The notes under the pieces are model-generated. The model made no database searches. It was not told where the DNA came from and saw only the letters and a list, made by a program, of their open reading frames with translations. The translations under genes were made by a program, and so were the position numbers. This document shows positions 2,045 to 40,192 of a DNA stretch of 64,000 nt, one piece after another. Position 1 is the first letter of the stretch, and the number at the start of each line of letters is the position of its first letter. Source of the DNA: Gracilaria domingensis (lineage: Eukaryota; Rhodophyta; Florideophyceae; Gracilariales; Gracilariaceae); NCBI GenBank assembly GCA_022539475.1, contig VCMS01000086.1:1-64000 (forward strand), written 5' to 3'.

Positions 2045-4070
2045 TTGGTTCTTCCACGCAAGCGGCTTTCGCCTCCGACTTCGGATATAACTCCTCCTTC
2101 TCCTCCGATACCTCGGCGTTCGCTGCCAGTCTCAACTGCTTCTTCTCCTCCCTTAGCAGGAATGAATCCGAACCCGTTCCATACCAACCCGCTCCCGGGG
2201 AACTCGTCGTCAGCTCCGCAAGCGGCGTCTGAGGTGCCCTCGGGCAGTGCGTCACAACAAGGACATCCTCCTCAAGGCCCTCCCAATACTTTGGTGGGTT
2301 TCAGTCAGCTCCTCTCCCTCAAGGGAATCCGTACGGTGGTCCGCTCAACCAACCCTACGCGGGGTACAACCATCTCGGATTCTTTCCTTCTCAAGCGCAA
2401 GCTCCTGTCCCGCAAGCGGTGGCTCCTTTCAGCTTCTACGAGGCGTATCCCGATCCGGGTGCTCCTCTTCCGATGCCTCCGGCTCCTCCAGTTGCTCCTA
2501 CTCAGCAGGCTTTCGATCCTAACGCCATTGCTTGGAATGCCGAGCAGGCTGTCCCGTTGACGATGAACCCCCGTGGGTGGATTAGTCGTGAGTCCCTCGT
2601 GAATCGGGATATACGCCGCGAGGGCCTTATCTTCTCCCGCGCGCCGTGGTTCCACCCGACAGCGGTTGCCGATGAGGCTCTCATCGATTCTTACGCCGTG
2701 AACGGAATGCTCCCAGGTGGGATTCCCGAGATGCAGTACGCTCCCGCGAGTGGCGAACCCGCATTGCGGGTAGAACCTCACTTGCTCCGATGTGAACGCG
2801 GGGAGTCCCTTGACCAAGCGCGTGGGGAGATGGCTCGTTTGGCTTACTCCAGGGTTGGAAGGTTGCGATATGATCATCCGATTCCGGCAGAATTCGACTT
2901 CTCGACGTGTCGCACTATCGTACCTACGGGGAGTTCTCATATGGCAACGCGTTGGCGGAGTTTCCGGAAGCGGAGCATCGGTATCACTTGGGTGAAGTGA
3001 ATCCTGATATCCTCCTGTGGAGTCGTCTCTTGCTGAGGGCAGAGTTCCGATACCTGTCACGGAGTAGGCGTCACAACCGTGATCTCTATGATTTCGAGAG
3101 GCGGGTCCGGTTTAAGCGGAATGCGCGCTCCCGTCGGGGACTTCTGATTCCGTATCCAAATTTGGAGGTCGATCGTTTGCGCTTCGATGCCTTACCGTCC
3201 CGATACGTGGGCCTTCCATCGTGGTGGAGTCGGGTAGAGGTCCCTGCGGGGTGTTTTGCTGAACTCCCGCCGAGCATCTACTATATCGGCTCGCGGTTGA
3301 TAGACAATCCCGACTCGGGCTATTGGTCGTTGGTACTCGCCGAGTGGGCTGCCCGCGTCGCGGTTCACCTCCTGTGGGATGTCTATGATCACTTCCGCTT
3401 GTGGTATCTTCCTCCAAATTTGAGGTGGCTCCTTCGAAGGATTGATCTCGTTACCCCTTGGGTTCCGAGGCTAACCAGGAAGAGGTTGGGGAGTTGTTGG
3501 ATGTAATCGACAGGGTCGATTGGGACCGAGTTCCGGTAGCTTGGCAGCCTGACAGGCGACAGCGTTTCCGCGACCGATCACCGGGGCGAATTTTCACCCG
3601 TTCCGGGGTCTGGGTGTACTACGACCCGTGGGAGCGCCAGCTCATCTCTCAAGAGCAAGCGAACGCGATGGCCGCACTTCCCCGCGCTATGCCGGTAGGT
3701 CACCCAGTTGGGTTTGTGTTCCTGAGGACTATGCCGTGCCCTCGGATGTCCTGATCCAATGGTGGATAATGATGAGATCGCCGTCGTTGCCGGAACAGGC
3801 CAACTCACTGGCATTCCGAATACGGACCCGAACGCAACTGCGGTCCCAACGGAGGGCGCTCCTGCCCCTGAGGAATGGTCCTTGATAGCTCCCACCGCAC
3901 AACCGGCAAATTGGGCCGGAAGCGTGGCTTCCCTTCGGGCCGATCTCCAGGCTCATGGCGTGCCAATCCCTCCGGGCGTGAACACCATCGCAGGGCTAGC
4001 GGCCTTCGCGAGCGAGTACTTCTCACAGAATCCCAACGCAGGAAGCGGTGCTCCCTCCACTGGCGGTTAG
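2045..4070 (+). pseudogene. Antisense ORF (aORF) of element A, several frameshifts
   Basis: This coding region lies between chromodomain and 3' LTR on the strand opposite to gag-pol. Its translation moves through frames 2 (2045 to about 2295), 1 (to about 2925), 3 (to about 3450), 2 (to about 3735) and 3 (to 4070). It still aligns throughout with the aORFs of B and E: GWISRESL, RAPWFHP, NGMLPGG, RTYGEFSYG, LRAEFRYL, LPSWWSRVEVPAGCFAELPP, YIGSRLI, AEWAARVA, RSPGR, YYDPWE. The N terminus is proline/glutamine-rich and includes MNPNPF, close to MNPNQF in B and MNPHQG in E. The C terminus ends in a conserved module (LRADLQAHGVPIPPG...AGLAAFA). I recognise no family. The start is uncertain: the ATG at 2016 is in another frame. 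Confidence 0.85.
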
Positions 4071-4345
4071 CCCCTCATGAGGTCTTCCTCCAATCTTAGA
4101 GTGTCTTGTGATAGTTTCCAATTAAAGCCAGCTAGTGGCAAGTTTTCCCTTACCCTCGTCGAGGTATGCTTCTCGGCGACGAGCTTCTTCTTTCTCCTTT
4201 TTAGGCATTTTCTACTTTTCCGCAATGCGGCATTGTCCCGATAATTCGGTGGTTGCTACTACTAACACTTCTCTCCTATTATACAGAGGATCTCTTCCTA
4301 CTTCTTGACTTCATCTTCTCTTCTCGAGCGTCACTCTTCTCTTCT
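4071..4345. other. Spacer between converging aORF and chromodomain ORF of A
   Basis: No coding capacity is seen. On the + strand it is pyrimidine-rich with CTTC runs (4185-4205 and 4300-4350). This matches the GA-rich character, on the element strand, of the same spacer in B and F. It must hold the 3' ends of two converging transcripts. Confidence 0.6.
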
Positions 4346-4642
4346 TCAAACCGCAGAGCGGGCACGAGAACTGTAAACTGCACCGGTTAACGGGCTACCC
4401 ACCATCGCATTGTCCAACGTTGGAGGCAATGGTGTCCGAGACCGGCGATGATACGACAAGACCTTGGACCTAGGGAGGTGTTCAATTGGCTCCCAAGTGT
4501 CCTCCTCTGGGGAATAGCCGTACCAACGGACTCTATACAGTAGCTTCCCTTCGGGGCTTTTCTCGTGTTCCACGATACGATCTACCACGAATTCCTGTGG
4601 GTATACGCCATCCTTGGCATCTCCTGGTGCTTCTCCCGACAT
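4346..4642 (-). CDS. Stand-alone chromodomain protein of element A
   Basis: A 98-residue ORF starts at the ATG at 4642. The chromodomain core is VDRIVEHEKSPEGKLLYRV followed by RWYGYSPEEDTWEPIEHLP, with the aromatic cage-type positions Y/W/W retained. In chromoviruses this domain binds histone marks and guides integration, and it is normally fused to integrase. Here it is separated from the pol stop (5347) by about 700 bp and has its own start codon. The same arrangement occurs in B and E. Splicing onto pol is an alternative that I cannot exclude. Confidence 0.85.
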   Translation of the reverse strand: MSGEAPGDAKDGVYPQEFVVDRIVEHEKSPEGKLLYRVRWYGYSPEEDTWEPIEHLPRSKVLSYHRRSRTPLPPTLDNAMVGSPLTGAVYSSRARSAV

Positions 4643-5346
4643 TGGGCAGTGATGTCCAGTAGTACCCACGCGGGTTAGTGGACCTTGGAGGCGTTGAACC
4701 GATCTTCGGGGCGGTGGACAGGTGGACTTCGGTCTTCTCAAGCCGTCCTGACGGAGTGCGCTAACTCCCGACACGGGCGTTCAATTACCTCACAAGTGAG
4801 TTCAACCGAAAACTCTCGATCTCCGGAGTCCGGCGAGCTCCTTTCTTTCCCAAACGAGCGGCCAACCGACGAACGGTAGCGTCCGTTTTGCGGAACCACT
4901 TTCACTTTGGTCGCAGGAGAGCCGTTGCGACGGAGAAGTAGCCTACAGCACTCCCTGTGCAGGGCGGCGGAACGCTGGGCCACGGCGCATATCCGGCCGT
5001 GCACTCCATTTTCATTGGATGGTGGCGCGCGCGTGTGTGCCACACATCCCGTGAACGGTATCTACAGTGTCAGTTTCCGGCAAGCGGTCGCTAAGCGGCG
5101 GGCACCACTCTCCAGCAATGGCATGGGATTACAGTATTCAATCTCGAATCTCCCGCCATAGGGCTGCGCATGCGCACTGCGCGCGGTGCCATTTACCGTA
5201 ATTCCGGGTCCGACGCACTATAGCGTTCCGTCTGCTAAGCAGCGCCCTTCATGGGACTTCTCCACTTCCTGACCAAGGCTTTCCAGCACAATCCACAAGG
5301 ATTCTTGTCTTCTTAACTCTCCCACTGCGGGCCATTCCCAGGTGGG
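4643..5346. other. Spacer between pol and chromodomain ORF of A
   Basis: No supported ORF. It contains a GC-rich stretch near 4960-5060 with AGGGCGGCGGAACG and GGGCCACGG, which resembles the equivalent spacer of E (AGGGCGGCGGTTCACC, 31950-31990). Some of it is therefore conserved as noncoding or regulatory sequence, or as intron. Confidence 0.5.
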
Positions 5347-8300
5347 CTATGCGTCACTTTCCATGCCGCTTCGTCCCGCGAAGGGGTCAGCGGATACTGG
5401 ACGTTCGCGCGAGCGAGTTACAGCGCGTTCCAGCGACTTGGATTGCATCCCAACGGGGCCACTAACATCCTTAGCAGCAGCACTCCCAGCAGGGGATTCT
5501 TCACTTCTTCTGACTTCGTTCCTCGCCGAGGTTTCGGAATCACGCGACGTAGCGCCAGCGCGATCGTTCCCAGTGGGGGATTCCATCTCACTCTGAGACT
5601 CAGCACCTCGGGTAGGTCCAGCGGATGCCGGAACAACCGGAGCGCGATTTACACTGTCCTCCCCCTCCTTAGGGTGCGATACGGCTTCCGCATTTCGCGC
5701 AATACCGTAGACGAGGGGTGAATCTCATGTAACTCAGTGGAGGGTGTAGGTGTAACCCGTGAGAGTCCGGGGTTATCCTTGAGCAACTCTGTTGTTTCAG
5801 GCAAGTCAGCGAGACCGCGCTGCGGGTGGGGCAAAACTGATGGACGGTTTGCTACAGTACCCGTCTGTTCGGTAACTTGATGCGACGATGGACCGTTTCC
5901 GGTATCCGGCGCGGCGATAACTTCCTTTATAGGGCTTGGTGCGCGATATACTCGATCTCGCGATACCCGCTCGTGCTGATTATCGATATCAAGCACGACG
6001 GTAGTCTCCTGTATGGATACAACCCGATAGGGGCCACTGGCGATTGGAGAGAGCTTATGGCGCTTCTCCTTCTCAGGATTGTAGTACTCCTTCCTGAGGA
6101 ACACATAATCATCAACCCGAAGCTGCGGTAGCGGCCTACGGATTCGGCTATCGAAATTGCGCTTGTAGGCGAGTTGAGCTTTCTCCATAGAGCGCTTAGC
6201 AATAGGCACCATCGTGGTTAACCATTTCTTCCACGCTTCGCGGTGTAGCCTCGGTGTCGAGTACTCGTCCATGGTTGGCTGTGCCTCAATGGCAAGAGGA
6301 GGTGGTCTCCTTGACAGGACTAACTCGAAAGGGGACAACGACGTACCCGATGTACCTGGGTGTTGTACGCGTATTTAATGGCGTCTGTGTACAAATCCCA
6401 AGTCTTGGGGTGTTCCGCAACGTAGGATCTCAATGCACCAAGAATGGTTCGATTAAATCTCTCTGCCTGACCATTAGTTTGGGGGTGATACGTTGTTGTG
6501 AACAGGTTCCTAATGTCGAGGATGCGACAAACGTCTTGGAAGAATTTCGACGTGAACTGGGAGCCGTTGTCGGAGAGCACGTGTACCGGTGGTCCATAGA
6601 CAAAGACCCAGTGGGTAACAAACGCCTGAGCCACAGCAGCAGCAGTTATCCGCTTGAGCGGCACAGTCCATACCAGCTTTGAGAAGCGATCGGTGATCAC
6701 CAAGAGATATTGATTCCCTTGCGAGGTTTTGATCAATTCGCCAAGAATGTCAATGGCGACAGACTCTAGCGGCGCCCTTGCACGGAATAACTTCAACTTC
6801 TTTGAATGCTTCCTCAGCTTGATGTCATTTTTGGCACATTCCTGACAGGATCGACGTACTGCATAGCAGTCGAATGCTATTGCAGGCCAGTAAAAATCCT
6901 TTCTCAATGTGAGATACAACTTTCTTCCTCCCGGATGGGCTCCCAGCTTCACATAGTGAGAGAGGTGAAGAACCCGACTCTGTAAGGAGTGCGGCACCAC
7001 TATTTGTGGGTTCGGTGACACCTTTCTTATTAAGTAGCCTTGATTATTCACCTGAAAGGGCAAGTGGTATCCACCGTTCAGACGGGCTCGTACCTGTGTA
7101 CAGAAGGGGTCCATCTGCTGTTCCCGTATCATCTCCTCGGGCGTTATGGGTATAAATGACCCGGTACCCGGTTCAGTGGGTCGTGTGACAAGTATATCGT
7201 CACAAACGTCATCCGTCACAATTTCCATACTCCCTTCGAGGTCGCCAACCATAAAACATGGGATGTCGGCGTCCTCGGTAGGCTCGGCTTCAGCTGATGT
7301 GCCCAAACGGGATAGGGCGTCCGCCTGGAGGTTAAGGGAGCCTTTCTTGTACACTACTTCGAAGTCGAATTCCGACAGTCGGAGTCTCCACCGCATCAGG
7401 CGTCCCGATGGTTCGGTGATTTCCATCAGCCAGCGAAGGCATTTGTGGTCGGTGTGTACACGAAAGTGGGTCCACATCAAATATGGTCTGAGTGTCGACA
7501 ATGCCCAGACTACGGCAAGACATTCCTTCTCGGAAACTGAGTAATTCCGCTCATGAACGTTTAGCGATCTCGACCAGTACCCAATAGGGTGTCGTTCCCC
7601 GGTCTCATCGGTTTGAAACAAAGCGCACCCAACCTGGTTTGCGCTAGCGTCAGTGTCGACCTCATAGGGTAACCCAGGTTTGGGGAGAGCCAGAATTGGC
7701 GGAGACGTCACGGCTTCAACCAATGCCGCGAACGCGGAGGCCTCTTCGCCTCCAAAGGGGTGCATTTCAACAGGTTTTCCTTTCGTAAGGAGCTTGTTCA
7801 ACGGTGAAGCAATGTCCGCGAAGTTCGGAACGAAACGTCGGTATACGTTACACAGTCCTAAGAAGGATCGCAGCTCTGTTTGAGTTCTCGGGTGTTTCGC
7901 CTCCTTCAAGGATTTGACCCGCACTTCATCGACTGAAAGCTTTCCGGGACGGATTATGTGACCCAGATACTTGACCGATTCAGTGAAGAACTCGCACTTC
8001 TTGAGTTTCAATGTTATCCCTGCGTCACGCAGTACTCTCATAACGTCCCGCACATGGGTCAGATGATCATCCAGATTGTTGGAAAAAACGACGATATCGT
8101 CCAGATACACCAAACATGTGGTCCACTTAAATCGCGCCAGTAAGATATCGACCGCACGCTGGAATGTAGCGGGTGCATTAGTTAACCCAAAGGGCATTCT
8201 CCGGAAACGGTATAGGCCTTGATGGCATACGAACGCCGTCTTATCCCGGTCTTTCTCACTAATGGGAACCTGCCAGTATCCCCAGTTAGCGTCAAGGGTG

Positions 8301-9840
8301 GTGAACACGTTCGCGCTCCCAAGAGAATCGATATATTCGTCCATCCGGGGTATCAGATATACATCTTTCACTGTCACCGCATTCAACTTTCGGTAATCGA
8401 TACAAAATCTCCAAGATCCATCCGGTTTCGGAACTAGCACTACTGGTGACGCCCAAGGGGATTGAGCGGCCTCAATAACGCCAGCCCGCAACATCTTCTC
8501 AACTTGAGACTTCTCTTCCTCCCGAGCCTTCGGTCCGGCCCGATAGGGGTGTTGTGCAATCGGCCGAGTGTTCGGAAGCAAGTCAATGCAATGCTCAGTT
8601 ATTCCAATCGTTCCTAGAGTTCCGTCCCACATGGGAGTGAATTCCCGCAGCATCTCGCGAAGCTTCTCCCGATGGGATTCCGGTACATGCTCCAAATCAA
8701 GCTTCATCAATTCCTCAACAGGATCCTTCAAATCACTGCCAGGTGGCACAGGACTAACCTCTAGAGGTCTCGGATTGTCTGAACCCGAGTCTTCTTGGGC
8801 TTCTTCCGTATTCACGGCTTCAACAACTTGCGGTTCGGCGCTCTCTTCCCCCTCCTTAGGGTCAGACACTCCGAGAACCTTGGCGATAGGTATTTTCGTC
8901 GGAACGACCGCAGTCGGGTGTGGCAGCACAGTACCAATCACTTGGTTCTTTACCAGCCACTGAGTGGATTTTCCCAAGTTGGCGACCATGACCTTGAAGG
9001 GTTGATCTGGTTGGATAGTGACCACTCCATTAGCGAGAGCGATTTGGCGCTGTTCATATAAAGCCGGTAACGGTTGTATCGTGTGGAGGTCCCATTGTTT
9101 GGTGTTGACGTCGACCCATACCTGGGATTCTGGGGGCAACTGCACGGACTTCGTGACGTGTAGTTTTGTCGACCCCATGCCATCGTTGGAGGCTTGTTGC
9201 GCGGCCGGCAGCGGTACGTGCTTCCGCGTAGCGGCTCGCAACGGTTTCCGAACAATCGGCAGTATCGACCCGTCTTCCATTTCCACTTGGCGTTTCCGCG
9301 GACGGATGGCTTCCACGAACCGATCGCAGAAGTCACAACCGAAAATAATCGGTGCAGCCAATGAGTCACAGACGACAAAATCAAGTTGTACCAAACAATT
9401 TCCTAATCGTACAAGGAGTGTAATATAACCAGCCGTTCTCAACGGATTATTGTTCGCATCGGCGAGATTTAGAGCAGGGCCGAAACGGATTGTCTCCCGA
9501 AGAGTGGGCGGGATTAGCTTCTTGTTGATCAAGTTGGGGGCAGCTCCTGTATCCAGGACAGCTAATTGCCTAACCATGAATTGGGTGGACAGGCCAAGGT
9601 CGGCATACACCTTGTAGTTCTTCTTGGCCATTACCAGGATTCTATCCGGAGCACGGAAATTTCGGGACCGTACCCACGGGCGACGAAGAACACCACAGTG
9701 TTCCGAATCTACGTCAGTGGCAGCCATCTTCCTTGTTAGGATTCTAACAGCCGGGGAGTGAAGCGGAGGCGCCTCGGGCGTCTTCAGCTTCGGCTCAGAA
9801 GACGCCCCTCCCGTTGGGGAGACTCCCAAGTCTAGTTTTT
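5347..9840 (-). pseudogene. Pol of element A: protease, RT, RNase H, integrase; two frameshifts
   Basis: Pol is entered by -1 shift from gag (heptamer 9835-9841) and stays open to 6320. Protease DTGAAPN is at about 9550, RT YLDD at about 8095-8110, RNase H DTDAS at about 7650 and TDHKC near 7455. Integrase has the zinc region HPGGRKLYLTLRKDFYWP...CAKN, then the core AIDILGEL, LSDNGSQF and NGQAERF. Near 6335 the frame shifts, and the integrase C terminus and tail continue in 6338 to about 5690. A second shift near 5680 leads to a tail ending at 5347. The order protease-RT-RNase H-integrase is that of Ty3/Gypsy. Protein similarity to the pols of B and E is high throughout. Confidence 0.93.
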
Positions 9841-9841
9841 C
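9776..9841 (-). promoter_or_regulatory. Gag-pol -1 frameshift element of A (heptamer plus hairpins)
   Basis: The heptamer GAAAAAC (9835-9841 on minus) reads G-AAA-AAC in the gag frame and is followed directly by the gag stop TAG (9832-9834). After 27 nt comes a perfect 10-bp stem, GGGCGTCTTC (9807-9798) with GAAGACGCCC (9785-9776), and a 12-nt loop. A small hairpin CTCCC-CAAC-GGGAG fills the spacer next to it. Pol lies in the -1 frame. The same layout recurs in B and E with compensating base changes. Confidence 0.8.
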
Positions 9842-11736
9842 GGAGCAGGACCAGCCTGTCGTGGCCGATTCCCGTCCTGGGCACCAACTTGATGACCGTT
9901 CGCGGGTTCGACTCTTCCTTCCATATTCCGGCCTACCACAGGAGCGGCTTGAGTCGCCATAGATCCACCACTCAAATGAACTGCCATTGCGTGCTTTGCG
10001 CCTTCGTAGGAAGTTCTTGGCACACGAGCTTGGTTCTCTGGGGAGAGAGATTCGAACTGAGTGATGATTTTCGACCTTTCCCGCGAAGGGAGCGTACACT
10101 GCGTTGAGATATGCCCATATTGGTAACATTCATAACAGATAACTGGGGTCGAATAGTCCTGTGGACCTCTATCCACACGACTCTGCGGGGTGTTATCCCT
10201 CCATCCTGGGCGAGTAAACCTCATGCCACGACCTCCATAGGGGATTGGCGCTGCCGGAACCCGGTGTCCTTGCGCATAGAATGCGGGATCCGTTTCCGAA
10301 GACGGGACAGAGGTGGACGGGAGGTCAGAAGTACCCATAGAGTCGGGGTTGCTACCCACGAGGTTAACGTTATCGTGATCCAGATTGGAACCATTCCCAT
10401 CAACCTGGGCAGAAGAATAATCCGATTCTTCGGCGAAGAGTACCTTACGAGGTTTGGTTCTAGAGGGACGCCTAGCTCGGAGCGTTTCACCTTCGGCTTG
10501 GGCATACTGTACTAATTCCAGGTAGGTCATCTTCCTATTATTCTCCCGATGTCGGGCGACAAGTGCCCGTATTTGGGAATCCAACCCATCCACGAACAGG
10601 GAACATCTCTCTCCCGAGGAATGTACATTATCGCAGCGGTGGAAAGCCTTATTCAGGCGCGTTGAATAAGCTGTTTCCGTTTCTCCCGGACGTTGCTTCG
10701 TATCCCTTAAGGCGGAAGTCGCCTTTTGGATGGCATGGCCAGTAGCATATGACCTTAGGAGGTAGTGTACCGCTTCGGGCCAACATGTAACTCCCCCTTC
10801 CGAGGCTCTTGACGATCCGCGGACGGAATTACACTGATCTTCTGCCAAACCTTTGAGGTAATACGATAGGGCTACATACGCCTGGCCCTCGCTCATTCCG
10901 AGTATATCAGCTTCTTGCACAAACCTTGCGAGGAAGTCCAGGACCAGGATAGGGTCCTCTCCTGCAAACTCTCTCTTATTCAGAGTAACGCCGAGTTTTC
11001 GGATGTAGTCCCGGACCTTTCCGGTTCCCCTTGAGGTCCGAACTTCGGAGGTATCCTTAAGTCGATAATAGCGATATGAAAGCAACTTCCGATACAGCGG
11101 ATTAGATGGCTTCAACTCCTTCAAGCCAGGGTGCTTCTTCCCCTTCTCCCGGGTGCGGATTGCTCCCTGAGAGGTAAAAGTAGCCTTGGACCGTGACTTC
11201 GATGAACGGGGACGCCGACGTCGGCTATCATCCGAAGAGTCGGAGGACGACGACGAGGACGAACTGTCCGAACTACTTCCGGAGTCGGAGTCAGACACAT
11301 CCGAGTAATTACGGGAATCCTTCATGGACCTACGACGGCTTCTCCTAGTGGATTGGCGAACTGAACTTTCGTCCTCCGAACTATTCCGCCCGGCGGCTTC
11401 TGCTTCCTGGTCCATCCGAATGGTGGCTTCGAGGGTGTCCAAGCGTGCGTGGATCCGTTCCACGGCGGCTTGAGTATCCTCTCGTACGAGGCGGTTTTCC
11501 TCCACATAAGCCCTTGGGGAGCCGAAGCACTCCATGAGTGAATTCATCTCCTGCCTCAGGATACGCACCTCTCCTGAGACGTCCTTATCTAGGAGTTTAT
11601 AAACCTTTCGACGGAGTTCCTCGACTGACTCAATGAGGGATATGTGGGCAGCGTTAGCAATACTAAGGCGAGTGCCCAGATTACTGTACTCCTGAGAGTC
11701 AAGTCTTTCCGGCGGTGCGGCAGAGGATGTCTCCAC
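9832..11736 (-). CDS. Gag of element A
   Basis: This is the capsid/nucleocapsid polyprotein, intact over 634 codons. The N-terminal helical region (LGTRLSIANAAHISLIESV to RLDTLEATIRMD) is followed by an SR/acidic stretch with poly-serine. Then come a capsid-type block (KVRDYIRKLG, ILDFLARFVQEADILGMSEGQAYVAL) and a C-terminal CCHC knuckle CYECYQYGHISTQC. The listed start is a GTG. The frame is open upstream through the PBS into the LTR (to 11922) and I find no in-frame ATG in that stretch, so the true start is unresolved (non-AUG or spliced). The gag stop touches the frameshift heptamer. Confidence 0.9.
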   Translation of the reverse strand: METSSAAPPERLDSQEYSNLGTRLSIANAAHISLIESVEELRRKVYKLLDKDVSGEVRILRQEMNSLMECFGSPRAYVEENRLVREDTQAAVERIHARLDTLEATIRMDQEAEAAGRNSSEDESSVRQSTRRSRRRSMKDSRNYSDVSDSDSGSSSDSSSSSSSSDSSDDSRRRRPRSSKSRSKATFTSQGAIRTREKGKKHPGLKELKPSNPLYRKLLSYRYYRLKDTSEVRTSRGTGKVRDYIRKLGVTLNKREFAGEDPILVLDFLARFVQEADILGMSEGQAYVALSYYLKGLAEDQCNSVRGSSRASEGGVTCWPEAVHYLLRSYATGHAIQKATSALRDTKQRPGETETAYSTRLNKAFHRCDNVHSSGERCSLFVDGLDSQIRALVARHRENNRKMTYLELVQYAQAEGETLRARRPSRTKPRKVLFAEESDYSSAQVDGNGSNLDHDNVNLVGSNPDSMGTSDLPSTSVPSSETDPAFYAQGHRVPAAPIPYGGRGMRFTRPGWRDNTPQSRVDRGPQDYSTPVICYECYQYGHISTQCTLPSRERSKIITQFESLSPENQARVPRTSYEGAKHAMAVHLSGGSMATQAAPVVGRNMEGRVEPANGHQVGAQDGNRPRQAGPAPKN

Positions 11737-11859
11737 GACTGGAACTTCCTCTTCAGGTTGTGGTACTGCCTGCGGAGGGAGTTCTATAATCTCCTGTCCA
11801 TCAACTGATGCATTCCGGTTCTCGGAGTTGTCGCGATTACTTCCCGATCCAGGGACCGA

Positions 11860-11877: not shown

Positions 11878-11880
11878 AAA

Positions 11881-12869
11881 TGTAGAGCAAAACCCTGCGC
11901 TAGGCGCGATGGGGAATCTCCACTAGGATGTCCGAGTCCTACTCCCTGGATGAGATAGAAACAGCGGCAGAACCCTCTGTCCGTGCTCGAGTCGCGAGAC
12001 AAGCCGGGTGTAAGACCGGAGACGGTGACTGGATATACCTACAGAGGTGAGATGCAAAGAACGGTGTAGATCCAGAGGTGAAGTGTGATCCGAACCTGGA
12101 GAGATGGAGAAAAAGGGGACCGTGTCAACGGGGGGGGAGCTCACGGTGCAACCCACCGGAGCGAAGCTACGGACCGTGCCAACCGGCGGAAACAGGTCCG
12201 ATAGCGGAGCGACGCACAAGGGCGTGCCAAAAATATACCCAATACTGGGGCGGAAGCAATACCTGAACCAGGTGAACGGGTGACAACAACAGTCACGAAA
12301 ATGAACAACAAAATACAATGACAACAACAAGGGACCGATACAACGGTAGATAAAACAAAGGTTCCAGAGATGGCAAGATGCAAGCTTCCTAAGTGACCCT
12401 GAGGGGTAGTAGTGCCGAAACCAATCGTGGTTACTCTCCGAGGGGAGTGGTAAACCTACGTAGGCAGCTGTCTACTATAGCCCGATCCTGAACAGGACGC
12501 GACTCAGTTGTCCATTTACTCGTCGGCTCCAGGGTGAGATCACCCGAGTATATATACTATTACTACTACGGTATCTACAATGCACACCTCCCGAGGGTCA
12601 TACACGTGGACGACCCACTGTCAGGGTGTGGGGTATTCCCCAACGGGCGTGGCACAAATATCTAACTAGCCAACTCCACCACGTGGCCTACTATCACACC
12701 CACTAGGCACTTCCCATGCAGGGTCTACCTATTAAGGGTCCAACCAAACCATCCCAACAATACCCAAAATTAAGGGGAGTTTTCATAACTTAGCCACGTC
12801 ACCGGCCATCAGTACCATCTCATTATGAGAACCGTGATGCATCCGATAGCGGAAAGCCGTTGCTCCACA
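11881..12869 (-). repeat. 5' LTR of element A
   Basis: This is the near-identical partner of 960-1947, with one extra base and about three substitutions. The candidate TATA for the element transcript is at about 12548-12558, read on the minus strand. The conserved hairpin/GTAGGTATA block is at 12009-12044, downstream of that TATA and so in the transcribed part. Confidence 0.96.
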
Positions 12870-14075
12870 CGCTTCTCGCGAGGAACCGGTAAGGTAAAGG
12901 ACTACATTCGAAGGTTGAATGTTACCCTTGAAACAAGGAAGTTCTCGGGGACAGATCCTATCCTTATCTTGGATTTCCTTGCCAGGTTCGTCCAGGAGGC
13001 CGATATTCTCGGTATGAGTGAAGCACAGGCATATGTGGCACTGCCGTACTTCCTAACAGGGACTGCGGAAGATCAGTACAACTCAGTTCGAGGAACCTCG
13101 AGAGCCTCGGAAGGAGGAGTCACGTGTTGGCCGGAAGCCGTGAACTACCTTCTCAGGTCGTACGCGACTTCCAACGCGATTTACAGCGCTACTCTTGCTG
13201 TTCGCGACACTAGACAGAAGAGTGGAGAATCTGAAACGGTTTATTCAACGCGGTTGAACAAAGCGTTTCACCGATGTGGTAATGTGTATTCCGCACAGGA
13301 ACGGTGTACCATGTTTGTTGATGGTTTGGACCCCACCATTCGGTCGTTGGTCGCTCGCCGACGCGAGAAAAAACGCCTAATGACGTACCTAGAGTTGGTT
13401 AATTACGCCCAGGCGGAAGGAGAGATGTATCGAGCCCGCAACCCGGGGCAGCGCCGCTCGAAAGCGCTACTCGCGGAGAGTTCGCCACGATCGATGTCGG
13501 TTTTGCGACATGAAACCGCTGTCGGTGATGCTGATAATGTCCACTTCATCGAAAGTAACCCCGATTCTTACGGATCTACGGACCTACCGTCAACCTCGAT
13601 TCCGAGCACGGAAGAAGACCCCGCATTGTATGCCAAAGGTGTCCGGGTGCCTGCAGCCCCGGTGCCTTACGCTAACAATTCGTCGCGTCTGAACCGTCCA
13701 GGGTGGAAGGACACAGCACCACAACGTCGAGTGGACAATCGCCCTCGCGACAAACCGGCCTCGGTCATATGTTACCAGTGCTACCTTCCAGGTCACGTAT
13801 CGATGCAGTGCGTATTTCCGCCGTCGCACAGGCCGAAAATTATTGCGTATTACGACGCCCTCACGCCCGAGGAAAAGGAATCTGTTCCACGAAAGGAATA
13901 TGATAAGGCCAGAGCTGAACTGGGATTACCGGTTCCGGTTTATGCTCAGCCCTCCGTTCCGGCACAGGCACCTTCGAACCACGTTCAAGGCGAAGTACCC
14001 ACGCATGGGGTTCAGTTAGGCCCCCCGAACGGAGTTCACGCACCGAATTCGGTGAGTCCCGTTCAGAAAAACTGA
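12870..14075 (+). CDS. Gag of element B, C-terminal half
   Basis: This continues the gag interrupted at 959. RFSRGTGKVKDYIRRLN joins the upstream YRYYRLEYVTSN exactly as the uninterrupted gags of A and E read (SRGTGKVRDYI, SRSTGKVKDHI). The capsid block ILDFLARFVQEADILGMSEAQAYVAL is followed by the region typical of gypsy gags and a CCHC knuckle CYQCYLPGHVSMQC at about 13772-13813. It ends PVQKN with TGA at 14073. The first ATG in this piece (12825) lies in the LTR of A and is not its natural start. Confidence 0.9.
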   Translation, partial: RFSRGTGKVKDYIRRLNVTLETRKFSGTDPILILDFLARFVQEADILGMSEAQAYVALPYFLTGTAEDQYNSVRGTSRASEGGVTCWPEAVNYLLRSYATSNAIYSATLAVRDTRQKSGESETVYSTRLNKAFHRCGNVYSAQERCTMFVDGLDPTIRSLVARRREKKRLMTYLELVNYAQAEGEMYRARNPGQRRSKALLAESSPRSMSVLRHETAVGDADNVHFIESNPDSYGSTDLPSTSIPSTEEDPALYAKGVRVPAAPVPYANNSSRLNRPGWKDTAPQRRVDNRPRDKPASVICYQCYLPGHVSMQCVFPPSHRPKIIAYYDALTPEEKESVPRKEYDKARAELGLPVPVYAQPSVPAQAPSNHVQGEVPTHGVQLGPPNGVHAPNSVSPVQKN

Positions 14076-14131
14076 CTTCGGGAGTTTCCCCTACGGGAGG
14101 GGCGCCTTCCGAGCCAAAGTTGAAGGCGCCC
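14066..14131 (+). promoter_or_regulatory. Gag-pol -1 frameshift element of B
   Basis: The heptamer GAAAAAC (14066-14072) is followed by the gag stop TGA (14073-14075). The 27-nt spacer contains TTCCC-CTAC-GGGAG. The stem GGGCGCCTTC (14100-14109) pairs perfectly with GAAGGCGCCC (14122-14131) around a 12-nt loop. Relative to A, one T-A pair has become C-G on both arms. Confidence 0.8.
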
Positions 14132-17100
14132 GAGGCGTCACAGCTTCGCTCCCCAGCTGTTAGAATCCTTTCAAGGATAGCGGCTACAACTGACGTGAGC
14201 TCAGAACACCTTTCGGTTCTACGTCGTCCGTGGATACGGTCCCGTAATCTCCGTATTCCGGAAAGAGTTCTTGTGATGGCCAAGAGAAACTACAAATTTT
14301 ATGCCGATCTTGGCTTTTCTAACCAGTTCATGGTTCGACAGTTGTCTGTGTTGGATACAGGAGCTGCACCGAACCTGATTCACCTTGAGTTGGGGCCACC
14401 CGCGCTACGGGATGAAATTCGTCATGGTCCAGGTTTGGACATCGCGGATGCCAACAATGACCCGTTGCGTACTCTTGGGTACATACCTCTCATGGTACGA
14501 TTAGGAACCTGTATGGCTAAAGTGGATTTCATGGTTTGCAAAAGCATTGCCGCACCGGTGATACTCGGTTGTGACTTTTGTGATCGTTTTGTTGAAGCGA
14601 TTCGACCTCGAGCTCCAGTTGTTACCATGGATGATGGTTCCGAAATACCGATTGTAAGGAAACCGCTAAAGAGAGCTACACGCAAGCGCGTCCCGCTCCC
14701 TGCTGCACAGGAAGTTCCAACCGTCAACCCGGTATCATCTAAGCTCCAATTGGCTCATGCCATCGCAATCCCGGCGCAATCTCAAGTTTGGGTCACCATA
14801 ACTACTAAGCAGTCTGGTCTACGTGTGGTACAACCGTTGCCATCATTGTATGATCAGAAGCAACTCGCTTTGGCGAACGGAGTAATCTCGGTGGAACCCG
14901 ACAAACCATTCAGAGTTTTGGTCGCCAACTTTGGCACAACCCGACAGTGGTTAGCTAAAAACCAAATCCTTGGTACCACTCTCCCACACCCTGCTGTTAT
15001 CGTACCGACGAAGATACCCGTTGCGGATTTTCTCGGTATAACCGATGCTAAGGAGGGGGAGGGATCAGCGGAAACCACTTTTACCGCATCGGTTACCCCG
15101 GCGAGCGAAGTCACCGAATCGCTGGCACCCACCGAGGGTAAAGCGTTGCCACCAGGAACGGAAGATACAGACCCTGTCAAGGAACTGGAACAGTTGAATT
15201 TTGATCATGTACCTGAATCTCATAGAGGTAAGCTAAGAGAAATGTTGAGGGAGTTCACACCCATGTGGTATGGATCCCTCGGGACAATTGGAATTACGGA
15301 ACACCGTATTGACCTACTTCCAGGTACTAGCCCCATTTCCCAACACCCATACCGGGCTGGTCCCAAATCTAGGGAAGAAGAGCAATCTCAGGTTGAGAAG
15401 ATGTTACGCGCTGGCGTCATAGAGGCGGCTCAATCCGCTTGGGCCTCACCCGTGATGCTAGTTCCAAAAGCGGACGGATCATGGCGATTCTGTATTGATT
15501 ACCGTCGTCTAAATTCGGTCATTGTCAAAGACGTTTATCCCATACCCAGGATGGACGAATACATTGACTCGCTTGGGAGTGCTACAGTGTTCACCGCCTT
15601 GGATGCCAATTGGGGATACTGGCAAGTTCCGATCCGTGAAAAGGATAAGGACAAAACTGCTTTTGTGTGCCACCAAGGTTTGTACCGGTTTAAACGAATG
15701 CCGCTCGGATTAACCAACGCACCGGCTACGTTTCAACGTGCTATCGATATCCTCTTGGCTCGATTCAAGTGGAAGACCTGCTTGGTGTATCTTGACGATA
15801 TCATCGTGTTCTCCGATAACCTTGATGACCACTTAACACACGTCCGGGACGTCATGAGAGTCCTCAGGGACGCGGGCATTACGCTGAAACTCAAGAAGTG
15901 CGAGTTCTTCACAGATTCTGTCAAATACCCAGGGCATATCATTCGACCTGGACAGCTCTCAGTAGACGCAGTTCGCGTGAAGTCGCTGAAGGAAGCGAGA
16001 AACCCTACGACACAAACGGAACTCCGCAGTTTTCTGGGTCTTTGTAATGTATATCGGCGTTTTGTCCCGAACTTCGCAGATATTGGGACCCCTCTTAACC
16101 ACCTTTTGAGGAAAGGTCAACCAGTTCAACTGGAACCCCTAGGCGACGCGGAAGCGTCTGCCTTTTCGGCATTAATTGACGCAGTAACGTCACCGCCAAT
16201 CTTGGATTTGCCTAAGCTAGGACTTCCATTCGAAGTAGACACTGACGCCAGTGCACACCAGGTTGGTTGCGCCCTGTTTCAGGTCACGGAAGACGGCGTG
16301 AGACATCCAATTGGATACTGGTCGCGATCCTTGAACGTACACGAACGTAACTACTCAGTTTCGGAGAAAGAGTGCTTAGCCGTTGTATGGGCTCTAACTA
16401 CACTGAGGCCATATCCTATGGGAAACCATTTTACGGTACATACGGACCACTCATCTCTCCGATGGCTCATGGAAATCTCGGAACCATCAGGACGCTTGAT
16501 GCGTTGGCGCTTGAGGTTATCGGGGTTCGATTTCACAGTTACGTACAAAAAAGGAACGTTGAATCTGCAGGCAGATGCACTCTCCCGCTTGGGAACAAAT
16601 GCAGAAGCGGCACCAGTTGACGATCTGGACATACCATGCTTTATGGTGGAAGAACAAGCAGGTTGGGTCGAATCTTTGTCGGACGACATCTGTGACGACA
16701 TCCTGCTCACTTCTGAGAAGTTGGATCCCTTGACTGGATCTTTTGTACCCATCACTCCCGAAGAGATGATCCGAGAACAGCAAACGGATGAGTTTTGTAC
16801 GCGAATTCGCGCTCGTCTCAATGGAGGAGATCGTATACCTTTTCAGGTTAACGATCAGGGGTACCTGGTTAGGTTGGTTGAAGCGTATACCCAAATTGTG
16901 GTCCCATACTCGCTGCAAAACCGTGTGTTGGTCATGACACACTATGTGAAGGTAGGAGCCCACCCAGGAGGTCGAAAACTATACTTGACCTTGCGTAGGG
17001 ATTCTTACTGGCCGTCAATGGCATTGGACTGCTACGCAGTACGACGCTCTTGCACCGAGTGCGCTAAGAATAACGTGAAACTTCGTAAGTACTCGAAGAA

Positions 17101-19222: not shown

Positions 19223-19465
19223 ATGGGTGAAGGAGAGCAGTCAAACACCGAGGTGTACCCGCAGGAATACGTGATCGAACGTATCGTACGTCATGTTGTA
19301 GACCCCGATGGGAAGGTACTGTACCAAGTGCGATGGTATGGCTACTCCGCCGAGGAGGACACCATGGAGCCGGTCGAGCACCTACCTAGGTCGAGGATCG
19401 TTTCATACCACCGTCGCACTCAGTCAGCCTTGCCGTCCAACCTGGACCAAGCCCAGGTGGGATAA
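19223..19465 (+). CDS. Stand-alone chromodomain protein of element B
   Basis: An 80-residue ORF starts at the ATG at 19223 (CACAATGG context). The chromodomain core is VIERIVRHVVDPDGKVLYQV then RWYGYSAEEDTMEPVEHLP, and it ends SNLDQAQVG, the same C terminus as E (PDLDQAQVG). It is intact and separated by about 700 bp from the pol end. The frame is open upstream to 19112, but the upstream residues are not shared with E, which favours the ATG at 19223. Confidence 0.86.
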   Translation: MGEGEQSNTEVYPQEYVIERIVRHVVDPDGKVLYQVRWYGYSAEEDTMEPVEHLPRSRIVSYHRRTQSALPSNLDQAQVG

Positions 19466-19851: not shown

Positions 19852-21705
19852 TTACACCCCCGATGAGGGACCGGCACCGCCGCTACCGGAGGGACCCTGC
19901 GAAGGGTGCGGAACGGCGTAAGCCAGTATCCCTGCCATAGTGGTGAGATGATCGGGCACGATAATTCCAGCGTTCTGGAGACTGGCGCGCAACATCGCGA
20001 TGTTCGCCGGAGAATCTTCCGGAGCGACCGGAGCTGTCGGGGCCGGAAGGACCGAAGGAACGGTAGCCGCTACAGGGGCCGGACCCACCACCGGAACACT
20101 CGCTTGAGTCGGAACATTCCAACCCACAGGAGCCTGGGGTACCCCGCCGCTGGCGTGCAACACCTGATTCGCCACCGGTAGGTCGTTCACCAACTCCTGG
20201 TCCATCTCGACGAGTGCTCCCGCCGCCTCTCCACCAGTATCCATGTTCGGATCATCCAGATCTACTGGGGCGACCCAGTTGTCACTGAACATGAACCCAA
20301 TGGGGTGACTGTCTGGAATCGACCGTGGCTGGTTCGCTGCCCACTCGGCATACGCGCTAGTCGTCATCGTACCCTCCCATGGGTGGTAATACACGAAATC
20401 TCCTGCTGTGGGATGTCTCCTACCGGGTGAGCGGTCGTAGTGACGACGAGGACCTTTCCCGCGTTGCAAACGGGGCACCGTTTCCCAATCGACTCCATCG
20501 ATAACATCCAAGATGTAATGGATCTCATCCACGTTCTCTTCGGACCCCAAGGGAGTGTGCAAATCCAGCGAGCGGATAATGCTGCAAAGCATCGGCGGAA
20601 TATACCAAACACGGTATTTGTCGTAAGCCTCCCAGAGGAGAAACGCTGCTACGCGTGCCGCCCACTCGCCGGCTACGAGACCCCACCATCCTGAACGCGA
20701 ATCGTTGATCAATCGGGAGCCGATGTAACTCAAGCACGGAGGCAGTTCTGCAAAACACCCTTTGGGTACCTCCACATCACGCCACCAATCTGGTAGAGGA
20801 GGGAACCGTCCAACAAAGGCCTGCGGTCTGTAACTCTCGGTCTCGATATTCGGATACGGAATCAGATACCCATGACGGAAACGAGCTTTCCGCTCAAACC
20901 GAATGCGGTTGACGAACCCACTCTGGGAAGCGTTCTTGCGAAGATAACGGAACTCCGCTCGGAGTATGGGCCGATTCCAGCACAACATCAACCTCGATGT
21001 GGTCGGGCCATCGCCAGCGTACCGCGCATGGTCGAACGCCGCCAAATTGTCTCCATATCGGACTTCACCGAAAGTACGGTAGAACGGAGTATCGAACCCA
21101 TATGACGGTGGAACCAGATGCTCGAGGTGCACTCGACTGAGTCTCTTGTACGCCAACTTCGCGTGTTCCGCGCGCACGGTGTTCAGGTTCTCACCCTCGC
21201 GGGTATCGTACCGGAAGAGCATCGGGTCGATCGCTATACGAACTTTCCATTCTGGGAATTGCACTACCGCTAACGGCAGACCGCCCGGTAGGAAGCCGTT
21301 TTAGGCATACGACTCCAGGAGAGTGTCATCCTTAACAGCTACCGGATGAAACCACGATGCACGGCTGAACGCAAACCCATCACGGAGTGGATCGCGTACT
21401 GCGAGAGATTCCCTCGATATCCAACCAGCTTGGTTCGCCATCAGCGGCATCGCTTGCGCTGAATTCCATAACGGAACGTTTACCGGGACCATCGGTTGAG
21501 ACTGAGGCAGTGGAGCCGTCGCAGAACCCGGCTGAGGGTAGTTCGACGCGCTCGCCTGACCCGTCGGGTGATGAGAAAACTGATTCGGGTTCATCGGAAT
21601 GACAGATGATGTACTGTGATCGAGTTCGGATACTTGAATACTCTGTTCGCTTGAGTGTGTATCGCGCTTGCGAAGTATAGAAACCGAGGAGTTGGTACCG
21701 CTCAT
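19852..21705 (-). pseudogene. Antisense ORF (aORF) of element B, one nonsense codon
   Basis: About 617 codons run opposite to gag-pol. The start is taken at the ATG at 21705 (MSGTNSS), about 80 bp from the 3' LTR. A single in-frame TAA at 21301-21303 interrupts LESYA/NGFLPGGL. At this point A has SYAVNGMLPGG and E has SYTENGMLPGG, so it is a point mutation. The order is a polar N terminus with MNPNQF, the core motifs GWISRESL, RASWFHP, RTFGEVRYG, LRAEFRYL, LIPYPNIE, LPDWWRDVEVPKGCFAELPP, YIGSRLI, AEWAARVAAFLLWEAYD, RSPGRRHP, YYHPWEG and IGFMFSDN, a Pro/Ala/Val linker, and a C-terminal module (RASLQNAGIIVPDH...GGAGPSSG). I do not recognise a family. The shared frame after divergence from A and E argues for selection on the protein. 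Confidence 0.88.
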
Positions 21706-21784: not shown

Positions 21785-22758
21785 TGTAGAGCAACGCAAT
21801 TTGCGTGGTTATCAGGATGATGCGCCTCATATACTCAGGGGAGTGATACGAGGACGCACTCGAAGAGTTATGAGTTGGACCCAATTTTGGCGGTTACTTT
21901 TGGAATGGCTTTCCCACAGTTACCTGTAATCAGGGTTGCCATTGCTGGCCAATACCGCTAGGTGGACGCGTGTACTACACCACCGTGTGTGTGCATATTA
22001 CGGGACAATAGGTAGTGCACCTGAGGTGCCTGACACTGGGCTAGCCACGTGTACGGACCCCTGCGGGTGTGCACCACGTGTACATAGTTAGTTTAGACCT
22101 ACTTAGGTGAGCTCGACCTCGTCGTCGCGAGCACCTTTGTAAAGTCAACCCGAGCACTTCTAAGTGAACTCTTTGTCGAGCAGCGCTCTCCTGAGTGGAC
22201 TCTACACGAGTGAGGCTCTGGCGCCAACCGCCTACGTGGGTTATCACTCTCGCGAGTATAGCCACGTCTGGTTACGGTGGTCCTACCCTCTCGGTACCTT
22301 TGAGGAACATCTGTCGTTGACGTCGGAACCTGAGGGTCGTACCGAGGAGGTATAGAACTAGATTACGAAGTGATCCGACTCTGTATAGAGTTTTGCCGTG
22401 TTTACGGAAACCCGTGCATTACCGTTGGAGGATCTCGCCCCGCTCCGGGCACAGTGCCGAGGAGGCCCTACCCTTCGCGTGTGGGTGTTGTTTGGTTGTT
22501 GTTTTCTGTTGCTTTCCCTCTCGGGACTACACCTGTCGTTGGTCGTGTTTCATCGTTGCCGATACCACCCCATCTCTGGAGTTTCTCATCGTTTCCTCAC
22601 CACGTGGCCTAGCACCTCTGTAGGTATAGCCAGTTGCCACTTCGGCCTTACAACCGAGTTACGATGGTACAGAGGGCTCTGTCACTGGTCTGCCATCTCT
22701 CACGAGAGCGGACCTTCGGACAGTCTGGTGGGTTTCACTCTTCCGAGTTTGCCCCACA
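21785..22758 (+). repeat. 3' LTR of element B
   Basis: It starts TGTAGAGCAACGC and ends GAGTTTGCCCCACA. It is homologous at its ends and in its U5-like part to the LTRs of A and G (GTAGGTATAGCC near 22620). It is about 974 bp. The partner LTR is outside the window, so the right end is assigned by similarity and the TG...CA rule. Confidence 0.8.
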
Positions 22759-24065: not shown

Positions 24066-24280
24066 TGTAACACAGAAGACAGCCTACAAGCCATCGTGAC
24101 GCTTGATCACCGTCCGAGGCTTGTAGCTCACGTGCTGCGAGCCAGCACAAGACAGTAGACAGCTTGTAGGATAGTCGTAGATATCTTTAGACTTCTACAA
24201 GATCTGTATTAAAGGAGCGTGTGCCGGCCCTCCCCTCCATCGGAGAAGGCCAGACTTCACTCAACCATCTCTTCATTACA
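24066..24280. repeat. Left LTR of element D
   Basis: 215 bp, with TGTAA/TTACA ends. It contains an inverted pair CTACAAGCC...GGCTTGTAG (24086 onward) and TATTAAAG at about 24207, a possible promoter element. Confidence 0.88.
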
Positions 24281-26350: not shown

Positions 26351-26355
26351 TAGCC

Positions 26356-28107: not shown

Positions 28108-29091
28108 TGTGGAGCAAAACCCCAGCGATGGGATCGTCTCTCAAGGCGTTCGAGTCCTTGCCCTCTAGACGAGGTGAACTCAGTGGTGAGCCCTCCGAAC
28201 ACGGATAGTGCGGGTGTAAGACCGCCCGTGGTACGGGATATACCTACGGAGGTTGAGTGGGTGAACGTGCTTGATCCAGGAATCCGGCGAAAAGTGACGG
28301 AATGGTCGAGGAGGAAGAGTACCGTAGAGCGGTGTAAGCCCTAGGCAAAAGGGGAGAAAGAAGGGAAATAGAGGAGGAAAAGAGAGGAATCCCGCGGCGG
28401 GACGTGCGGAAAGCGGCAACAGACCCGGCGCCGGGAGACGACGATGTGTATTAAGCCCACGCGGCACAACTCTATACAGAGAGGGAAACGCTACCAATTG
28501 TGGTGAAAGCAGTACAACTGCACAAATAAGAAACATGAACAGTCCGAAGACACGGAATAAAACAGCCCGAGGGCAAGGCCACAATGGTCAGTATTGCCTG
28601 AATAATCCCGAGGGATGAAGCTGAGTCGTACCGTACGCGGTGTTTCTCCGGAGGGAGTTGTACACTTCGCGATGGCGAAACAGTTCAGAGCCAAACTCGG
28701 TTACCCTTTACTGAGGGGCGGAGGTGGCTGCGAGGTGATCTTCTCATATCATAACCGATTACTTAGTTAAACTAAATTAAATAAATAAAGTGCACGCTTG
28801 TGCAGGTCCACACACGTGGAAGGTGTGCAACCCGCGGCAGCGGCCAGTAAACTATTCGACTATCGAACCAGATTCACCTGTGAAAGGGTCAAAATAACCA
28901 CACGCGTACACGCGACCAATACTCATCCGCGCCACGTCATGGCCGACCCCTCAGGGTGCCATACCTCAATGCGGCCAAAAGGTATCCCATCAGTGGGCCA
29001 ATATTCATACCTTCCGAGTACCCGGAACCATCCTTACCAGGGGTTTATGAAAACAATCCCCGTGTATCGGGTAAGCACGTTTTGCTCTACA
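28108..29091 (-). repeat. 3' LTR of element E
   Basis: On the + strand it starts TGTGGAGC and ends GCTCTACA. It is nearly identical to 39204-40187. The conserved hairpin block lies at 28213-28248. Its ORFs (for example 28180-28584) are LTR sequence without independent support. Confidence 0.96.
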
Positions 29092-29105
29092 TATCCCCCT
29101 CCTTA
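29092..29105 (-). promoter_or_regulatory. 3' polypurine tract of element E
   Basis: On the element strand TAAGGAGGGGGATA touches the LTR start. Its 12-base core TAAGGAGGGGGA recurs inside pol at 32676-32687, and 11 of the bases recur at 35895-35905. Confidence 0.85.
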
Positions 29106-29171
29106 GCGCAGGAAACATCCGGTTTGCGAGCGGAGACTCATCAGGGAGCTCGCATATAAGCGTGGTCCACC

Positions 29172-30986
29172 ATGGACATATCCGAGATTCCGGTTCCTCG
29201 TCACAATGAGACACACGTGCAAACGCACTCAGCTTCTCTGCACTCAGACGATTCAGTACGTGAAGTTTCTTCTGCGATCGACGATTCGATGAACCCTCAC
29301 CAGGGCGACAAGCAGCCCTCCCAAACCGGGGTTCCGAACGTTTCGGGTCCCGCAACTCCTGCGACAGGGTATCTCGGCGGATTCGCCTCCGCTCCTCTGC
29401 CTCAGAGTCAACATCACACGTCTACACCGAATCCGGTCGACGTCGCGGCGTGGAATTCCGCTCAGGCGGTGCCCTTGCTGGCGACTCCAGCTGGCTGGAT
29501 AGCGCGTGAATCGCTCCTTGTTCAAGATCCGACTACCGGAGGAAGCTGGGCCTATTCCAGAGCGCCCTGGTTTCACCCGATAGCGGTTCGCAACAGTGCG
29601 TTGATGGATTCATACACCGAGAACGGTATGCTGCCTGGCGGCCTGCACCGAGATATGATGGATTCCTGGGATTGGAGAAACCGCGTGGCGGTTGTACCTC
29701 ACGTGCTGTCACGAAAACGGCGCGGCCGTGGATACGAAACGCTGGATGAAGCGCGCGCGGCTATGGCGCGATTGGCGTACTTTCGGAAGGACCGAGCCTC
29801 GTTCCCCGAGAGGATCCCCCAGTCATACGGGTTCGACCTTTCCCGGTTCCGAACTTACGGAGAGATCAAGTATGGCGCGAACCTCGCGGACTTCCAAGCG
29901 GCGGAAAACTTCCCGGAGTCGATGCCGGCGGACATTCTCCTGTTCAACAGGCCTATCCTGCGAGCGGAGTTCCGATATCTACATCGCCTTTCGGGAGAGG
30001 GACGCTTCTTCGACCGATTGCGAAACGAACGCAAGTGGCGATCCCGGTTCGGGTATCTGATTCCACACCAGAACATGGAGGTTGAACGTTTGCGTCCGGA
30101 CGCACTAGCCGGTCGATTCGCTCCACTCCCATCGTGGTGGGCTCACTATGAGGTACCACGCGGGTGTTTCCCGGAATTGCCTCCGTGAATCTCCTATGTG
30201 GGGTCACGCATGATTGCGAATCCGCACTCGGAGTACTGGATGCTCTTCATCGCCGAATGGGCCGCTCGCGTTGCCGCGTTTACGCTATGGGAAGCATACG
30301 ACCAGAACCGTGTTTGGTATTTGCCTCCGAGGTTACGGAATGTGATTAGATCACTGGACTTATACACCGCGCTCGGTTCGGACGACAACGTCAGCGAGGT
30401 CATCAGCCTTATCGATCTCATCGATTCCATTGATTGGAGTACCGTTCCGGCGGAAAACGTCCCCAGGGACACTCGTTCGCACTACGACCGTTCGCCAGGG
30501 CGAAGACATCCGGGTGCCGGTCACTTCGTGTACTACGATCCCTGGGAAGGAGTTACCGTCCCGAAGGAGCGGGCCCTCGTCCTACGCGGACTTCCTCGAA
30601 TGGTTCCGAGCGATCACCCTATTGGGTTTATGTTTTCCGACAACTATTACTCCGTAGCAGAGGAGGACGATCCAATGGTGGATGACACTGTGGAAGACCC
30701 GGCAACGGGAGGCCCGTCGGCGGCTTCCGCAGGAGTTCCGGTTGTCGGAGGGGCGGCTGCGCCAGTTGCTCCTATCGGTTGGGGCGTGGGCCCTTCGCAG
30801 GGGAATATTGACCCTCGCGTGATAGCGATGCGCAACCAACTCCTCGGACTTGGGGTGCCGGTTCCACCGGATATGTACGACCTCGGCCAGCTGTTGGCAT
30901 TGGGAGCGCAGGCCTTTGCGAGTCAGCCTCCCCAAGCGGAGCCGTCAAACCCTGGAGGTGCCGGTCCTTCGACAGGATGGCAGTGA
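29172..30986 (+). pseudogene. Antisense ORF (aORF) of element E, one nonsense codon
   Basis: About 604 codons run opposite to gag-pol. It starts at an ATG in the context CCACCATGG at 29172, 80 bp from the inner LTR edge. One in-frame TGA (30186-30188) breaks CFPELPP/ISYVGSR, where A and B have serine and cysteine codons. Core motifs by residue: GWIARESL about 107, RAPWFHP about 130, NGMLPGG about 152, RTYGEIKYG about 229, LRAEFRYL about 262, WWAHYEVPRGCFPELPP 323-338, AEWAARVAAFTLWEAYD about 359, RSPGRRHP about 440, YYDPWEG about 454, IGFMFSDN about 483. A variable Ala/Val/Pro linker precedes the C-terminal module ending GGAGPSTG. No transmembrane segment, signal peptide or known catalytic motif is evident. 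Envelope, gag-like or regulatory roles are all unproven. Confidence 0.88.
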
Positions 30987-40187: not shown

Positions 40188-40192
40188 TCAGA

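Follow-up and report, generated by a model that had tools for sequence, protein, structure and literature searches.

Antisense open reading frames (ORFs) located between pol and the 3' long terminal repeat (LTR) have been described in the plant Gypsy elements Grande, RIRE2 and Retand; TRP28, for which a regulatory role has been proposed, is present in nearly all the Retand clusters studied (PMC7264820; PMC11963269). The gene23 of maize Grande has this position and is transcribed antisense to gag-pol; it is reported to have a promoter in its upstream region and a nuclear protein as its product (PMC7264820). Retroviral 3' LTRs are also reported to make antisense transcripts (PMC9822710), and the human T-cell leukemia virus HTLV-1 has an antisense gene, HBZ, which encodes a bZIP factor (PMC6950816); the HTLV antisense promoter is said to lie within the 3' LTR (PMC7264820). 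Here we analyse a stretch of 64,000 nucleotides from the red alga Gracilaria domingensis (hereafter the window; it is the start of contig VCMS01000086.1, our contig C86, of a 77.9 Mb genome). The gene content agrees with a red-algal host, since phycobilisome linker genes are found on several contigs and on C680, a contig resembling the plastid. An oomycete host was considered and discarded, the elicitin domain PF00964 having no match, although it had none in any control genome. Three chromodomain Gypsy elements of the window, A, B and E, each carry a gene of 604–685 codons which is antisense to gag-pol and adjoins the 3' LTR. On balance, we favor the view that chromodomain Gypsy elements of red algae have here a conserved accessory gene, lying antisense between chromodomain and 3' LTR, which this LTR probably expresses and which may regulate the element's own cycle.

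A preliminary description of the window, based on its letters, had already compared the gene with antisense ORFs known from plant Gypsy elements. The comparison holds for the layout (antisense, between pol and 3' LTR), which Retand shares with the red-algal elements, but not for the host, a red alga and not a land plant. Retand elements are flowering-plant non-chromoviruses with TRP28 (Transposase_28, PF04195; PMC7264820; PMC11963269), whereas the elements described here have a chromodomain. PF04195 has no match in the genome at E-values up to 10, nor in the 20 members of the family that were scanned, and the red-algal antisense protein has no detectable sequence relation to the Retand domain, although the two may be related in fold. 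Grande gene23 is similar in position and orientation. HBZ is likewise an antisense gene; the red-algal protein, however, has no bZIP domain (no Pfam match in the proteins scanned) or other known domain, and its LTR promoter is only a candidate. The env-like extra ORFs of plant Gypsy elements also lie between pol and the 3' LTR, but in sense orientation (PMC7264820). The gene was not found described in the literature on red-algal and oomycete retrotransposons and on antisense or additional ORFs, as covered by the titles and the beginnings of the abstracts of articles outside subscription. Most likely, it is a functional component of the element that has so far escaped description.

The preliminary description stated that A, B and E encode the same antisense protein, and both the reading frames and a search of the window with a family profile bear this out: the three copies are matched, with pieces at E 2e-10 or better, and the rest of the window gives only scattered matches, at E 0.5 or worse. 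The single stops of B and E and the frameshifts of A had been read correctly, as had the coordinates of B and E. The start of A, placed at 2045, needs to be moved, since its ATG lies slightly upstream, at 2016; from there the pieces of the gene are spread over several frames, to about 4070. The three copies of the window are dead, but the family is not.

The genome contains the gene in at least six families, named A, B, E, F, G and H; F and G, and separately H, were revealed by queries from other sources. Their pairwise identity is 37–46%. B, G and H each have at least 20 long open copies. The B query gives at least 90 scored matches, of which 47 of the 90 listed lie in stop-free frames of at least 657 codons; the corresponding figures are 58 of the 74 listed matches for H (at least 587 codons; both counts by eye) and 21 listed matches for G (at least 721). 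The E query gives at least 119 matches, other families included, with few intact E copies, and copies were found with the A query in frames of 703 codons. Intact copies read for F, G and H, one per family, encode 636, 670 and 599 amino acids, respectively. A 617-amino-acid frame, open from the same Met, is found at 23 of the 30 B loci fetched, and 3 of the 30 E loci fetched are open over the whole length. Pol is present at all 12 places predicted from B copies. The copy figures are lower bounds and concern elements that have the gene. A chance open frame is excluded, because copies free of stops over 599–685 codons exist elsewhere in the genome and each of the other five frames has 4–28 stops in the representatives of the six families, against none in the frame of the gene.

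The ratio of nonsynonymous to synonymous substitution rates (dN/dS) is 0.238 among the 23 intact B copies, 21 of which are different. They show 57 synonymous and 51 nonsynonymous changes, when random placement expects 31.3 and 73.0, with a further 3.7 stops (only intact copies were used, so that stops were excluded from the outset); none of 5000 random trials gave so few nonsynonymous changes. In the same five elements, dN/dS is 0.285 for the antisense gene and 0.294 for the reverse transcriptase (RT) and RNase H, a comparison which leaves out the 7 of 12 pol stretches interrupted by stops in the frame that was read. Across the six families, dN/dS ranges from 0.15 to 0.46, with synonymous sites near saturation. 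The dN/dS values leave out the non-intact loci (7 of 30 for B, 27 of 30 for E), and the A, F, G and H loci were picked for their open frame. The frame of the gene is thus shown to be held by a purifying selection as strong as that acting on the RT of the same elements, and the gene is almost certainly functional. This was the central proposal of the preliminary description; it is strongly supported by the RT-like selection, by the existence of six families and by relatives in Gracilariopsis chorda (see below).

Some of the values speak for a weaker constraint: dN/dS is 0.643 among three intact E copies and 0.479 among four A copies. In the E family (30 copies, including decayed ones), the changes private to one copy are evenly distributed over the three codon positions (198/188/193). 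When the second base is shared by two copies (39/34/73) or by at least five (10/9/26), the changes favor third positions; when it is shared by 3–4 copies (17/14/19), they do not clearly do so. This analysis by codon position took all 60 loci of B and E. We explain the high E and A values by neutral decay of inserted copies, superimposed on a constraint that acted while the elements spread, although this is shown for E only. A dN/dS near 1, which according to the preliminary description would refute a functional gene, did not occur; only the private changes of old E copies look neutral.

An open frame can also be the mirror of a constraint acting on the sense strand, and the sense frame which shares third positions with the gene has a likewise low dN/dS, 0.21. 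However, that sense frame is interrupted by 26 stops in the B copies that were checked and by 13–28 in the representatives of the other five families; no other frame has as many in B (26) or in A (28). Because of these stop counts, the mirror explanation, also named in the preliminary description, is refuted, and we see virtually no chance that it is correct.

Searches of protein databases yielded 15 relatives (P0007–P0021). The only named source is another red alga of the order Gracilariales, Gracilariopsis chorda, whose relative P0016 has nothing above about 70% identity in the G. domingensis genome, so that this genome is distinct from the G. chorda record. In a tree, the relatives obtained from other sources each pair with one particular family. 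More distant relatives could have escaped detection, because each protein search scored only about 8000 candidates, those sharing most words. Among viral contigs, neither the 3 nor the 33 pattern matches include one that encodes a relative.

Regarding expression, in all six families a distance of 53–80 nt, which includes the polypurine tract, separates the start codon of the gene from the LTR edge (the last 7 LTR bases only were used to place the edge of H). An antisense RNA with a leader must therefore begin near or inside U3. Outside their last 12 bp, the LTR ends of five families (A, B, E, F and G) are only 22–38% identical, which is near chance, and all five have the motif TATGA at 45–47 bp from the edge, oriented towards the gene, as well as the motif TCATA at 86–89 bp, so that the starts of the two motifs are 41–42 bp apart. 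TATGA is the sole 5-mer common to the five ends within 1 bp of the same distance, and none of 20000 shuffles gave any such 5-mer; TCATA, whose distance varies by up to 3 bp, was not counted in this test. The genome has 558 exact LTR/polypurine edges (a single one with a reversed-pattern control), and 309 of them have TATGA at this place (none in the control). Among 50 listed edges of contigs C1–C22, TATGA is present in 22 of the 28 that have a listed gene copy next to them and in 5 of the 22 others (Fisher P 1.5e-4, for copies that are not independent and with gene copies defined as those among the matches listed). An A-like LTR of the window (48133–49141) has TATGA at 44 bp and TCATA at 85 bp. 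The start-to-edge distance and the TATGA/TCATA pair fit transcription from within or beside the 3' LTR, where the preliminary description had put it, and an antisense RNA starting from the 3' LTR appears fairly probable on these grounds. A TATA box in the leader that precedes the first ATG was also considered and dropped, since TATA-like sequences were seen by eye in A, E and G and not clearly in B, F and H.

Several observations count against this candidate promoter. A common ancestry of the LTR ends is possible, and the shuffle test therefore makes them look more independent than they are. TATGA is at its place in none of the five H edges examined, though H is abundant and intact, and it is missing from one of nine B edges; a box at that place is thus not needed in every family. 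A solo LTR of the window (52681–53681) has TATGA at 46 bp but no TCATA.

The antisense protein is composed of a conserved core of about 380 residues (382 modelled) and of variable tails, which are proline/alanine-rich and acidic. The core is predicted to be all-helical, with good confidence scores (predicted local distance difference test, pLDDT, 90; predicted template modelling score, pTM, 0.90; 24 sequences). This model replaces an earlier one of the whole protein, calculated from ten sequences, which was poor (pLDDT 57). Sequence searches in Pfam, PHROGs, NCBIfam and PDB gave nothing convincing for the antisense protein, and no fold match was found for the 382-residue core in viral or PDB structure libraries. 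A comparison of the core by VIA-align, against 37 chains only, gave nothing useful, which is no proof of a new fold. No nuclear localisation signal shared by the proteins was found: a dense basic cluster (4 K/R in 5) is present in 5 of 20 proteins, at differing places. It occurs in only one of the six genome families (E), so that nuclear action is unsupported by sequence.

The following scheme may account for these observations. A separate antisense RNA would begin in the U3 of the 3' LTR, and the protein would be translated from it. TATGA could be the core promoter of the antisense gene, and its mirror, TCATA, a possible partner in the sense direction; the two would then form one bidirectional promoter block, which would drive gag-pol when located in the 5' LTR and the antisense gene when located in the 3' LTR. 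Alternatively, the inverted pair may be the binding site of a dimer, even of the antisense protein itself. The protein might regulate the cycle of the element (transcription, protection from silencing, entry or integration) rather than be an enzyme of reverse transcription; we propose this regulatory role tentatively, giving it somewhat less than an even chance. An RT-like constraint on a protein that is made from another RNA than gag-pol would suggest that the protein mainly helps the copy which encodes it, for example by acting at its own locus, unless few copies are active at one time. The most complete version of the scheme, in which a protein family of unseen fold is essential to red-algal chromodomain Gypsy elements and owes its expression from the 3' LTR to half of a bidirectional promoter, in which TCATA and TATGA point away from each other and the other half drives gag-pol from the 5' LTR, is rather unlikely to be right in all its parts.

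The same evidence can be read in other ways. Instead of a regulator, the protein could be a structural component of the particle, either another protein of capsid type or one associated with the virion, produced from its own antisense RNA. Its predicted all-helical core, the lack of a recognised domain, the number of long open copies and the RT-like constraint are all compatible with such a function. But the elements already have a well conserved gag, the hhalign comparison of the family profile with this gag gave no match (E 0.73 over just 22 columns), and no fold match for the core was found in the viral or PDB libraries; we consider a particle protein unlikely. The antisense RNA itself, rather than the protein, might be what matters, through double-stranded RNA or interference with gag-pol transcription. 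Such a role has been discussed for plant elements (PMC7264820), and the gene overlaps the 3' part of the full-length sense RNA, so the two RNAs could pair. A role of the RNA only would not, however, produce the selection observed on the amino-acid sequence, and we regard it as highly improbable.

The accessory genes of LTR elements are sometimes captured (PMC7264820), so the gene could be a host gene that merely hitch-hikes. This is improbable, given that six families as diverged as those described above have it in the same place and under selection, and that the relatives from other sources pair with individual families. No single-copy host homologue was seen, in searches that would not easily find one. 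An accessory gene of the element remains our preferred explanation.

Antisense genes had already been described from Gypsy elements of land plants and from some retroviruses, and the red alga adds a case from a distant lineage. It points to an independent origin, or an independent retention, of antisense accessory genes in different Gypsy lineages. The case comprises dozens of long open copies in several families, under an RT-like selection, and bears on the question of what antisense genes do for a retrotransposon. The confident model of the core could guide the design of mutants, and the candidate promoter motif is testable by stranded RNA sequencing.

The features of the three elements are collected in Table 1. 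Elements A (960–12869) and E (28108–40188) are both on the minus strand. A sits inserted in the 5' part of B, which is why the gag frame listed for B starts within an LTR of A. On the gag-pol strand, the Pfam matches of A and B follow the Gypsy order (RT, RNase H, integrase), and in all three elements the antisense gene occupies the space that separates pol from the 3' LTR. The window has four gags, which can be aligned with one another and whose Pfam matches are weak or absent. The PF00385 chromodomains (E 1e-10 to 9e-14) are found between pol and the 3' end of the antisense gene in A, B and E, where stops part them from pol. From these stops, the chromodomain had been considered as a separate spliced exon; this was dropped, since an open copy of family H (L084:367-2199) has one continuous frame, in which pol is open from the end of the integrase to the chromodomain, via a linker of several hundred residues, opposite the antisense gene. 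On its opposite strand, the linker of H contains an open frame of 402 codons, which is probably a mirror. A and E are alike just inside their 5' LTR (11840–11895 and 39160–39220, respectively), with GGTCTCCCGACCTAGAA, likely the primer binding site.

Table 1. Features of the Gypsy elements A, B and E in the window (positions are those of the window).
Feature	Position	Strand	Remarks
Antisense gene, A	2016..4070	+	frameshifted; intact relatives L065-L068, 685 amino acids
3' LTR, A	960..1947	-	antisense start codon 68 nt inside edge
TATGA in LTR, A	1903..1907	+	45 from edge; TCATA 1862-1866, 86 from edge
Chromodomain end of pol, A	4346..4606	-	PF00385
pol, A (RT, RNase H, integrase)	6320..10129	-	Pfam
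gag, A	9832..11736	-	weak zinc knuckle match; alignment with other gags
5' LTR, A	11881..12869	-	99.6% identical to 3' LTR of A
gag, B	12825..14075	+	listed frame starts within LTR of A
pol, B	14120..18295	+	Pfam (RT, RNase H, integrase)
Chromodomain end of pol, B	19253..19465	+	PF00385
Antisense gene, B	19852..21705	-	single in-frame stop, TAA
3' LTR, B	21785..22758	+	antisense start codon 79 nt inside edge
TATGA in LTR, B	21827..21831	-	distance 47 in relative L005; position counted in window
3' LTR, E	28108..29092	-	antisense start codon 80 nt inside edge
TATGA in LTR, E	29046..29050	+	reads towards antisense gene
Antisense gene, E	29172..30986	+	single in-frame stop, TGA
Chromodomain end of pol, E	31377..31592	-	PF00385
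pol, E	32336..36889	-	several frames; DNA similarity to pol of A and B
gag, E	37256..39022	-	66% identical to gag of B; no Pfam match
5' LTR, E	39204..40188	-	99.5% identical to 3' LTR of E

The window has a fourth Gypsy element, at 53772–63071 on the minus strand (gag 61587–63071, pol about 58026–60206), with a polypurine/LTR edge of the same type. In this single case, the family profile gives no antisense gene match and TATGA is absent from the 91 bp of LTR that remain at the edge (53772). The solo LTR mentioned above, of about 1 kb, has a 5-bp target duplication, ACGCG, on both sides and is 91 bp away from the LTR edge of another Gypsy element.

Other features of the window include a direct repeat of about 200 bp (24083–26351), whose two copies are 98% identical and 2070 bp apart, near a reverse transcriptase frame (23132–24070). 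An open frame at 40721–41473 has cysteine-rich Ephrin_rec_like and TNFR-like matches and is possibly a piece of a host gene. Another open frame, at 42114–43400, has a DDE_Tnp_4 endonuclease domain (E 2.7e-18); we take it to be a Harbinger-like transposase.

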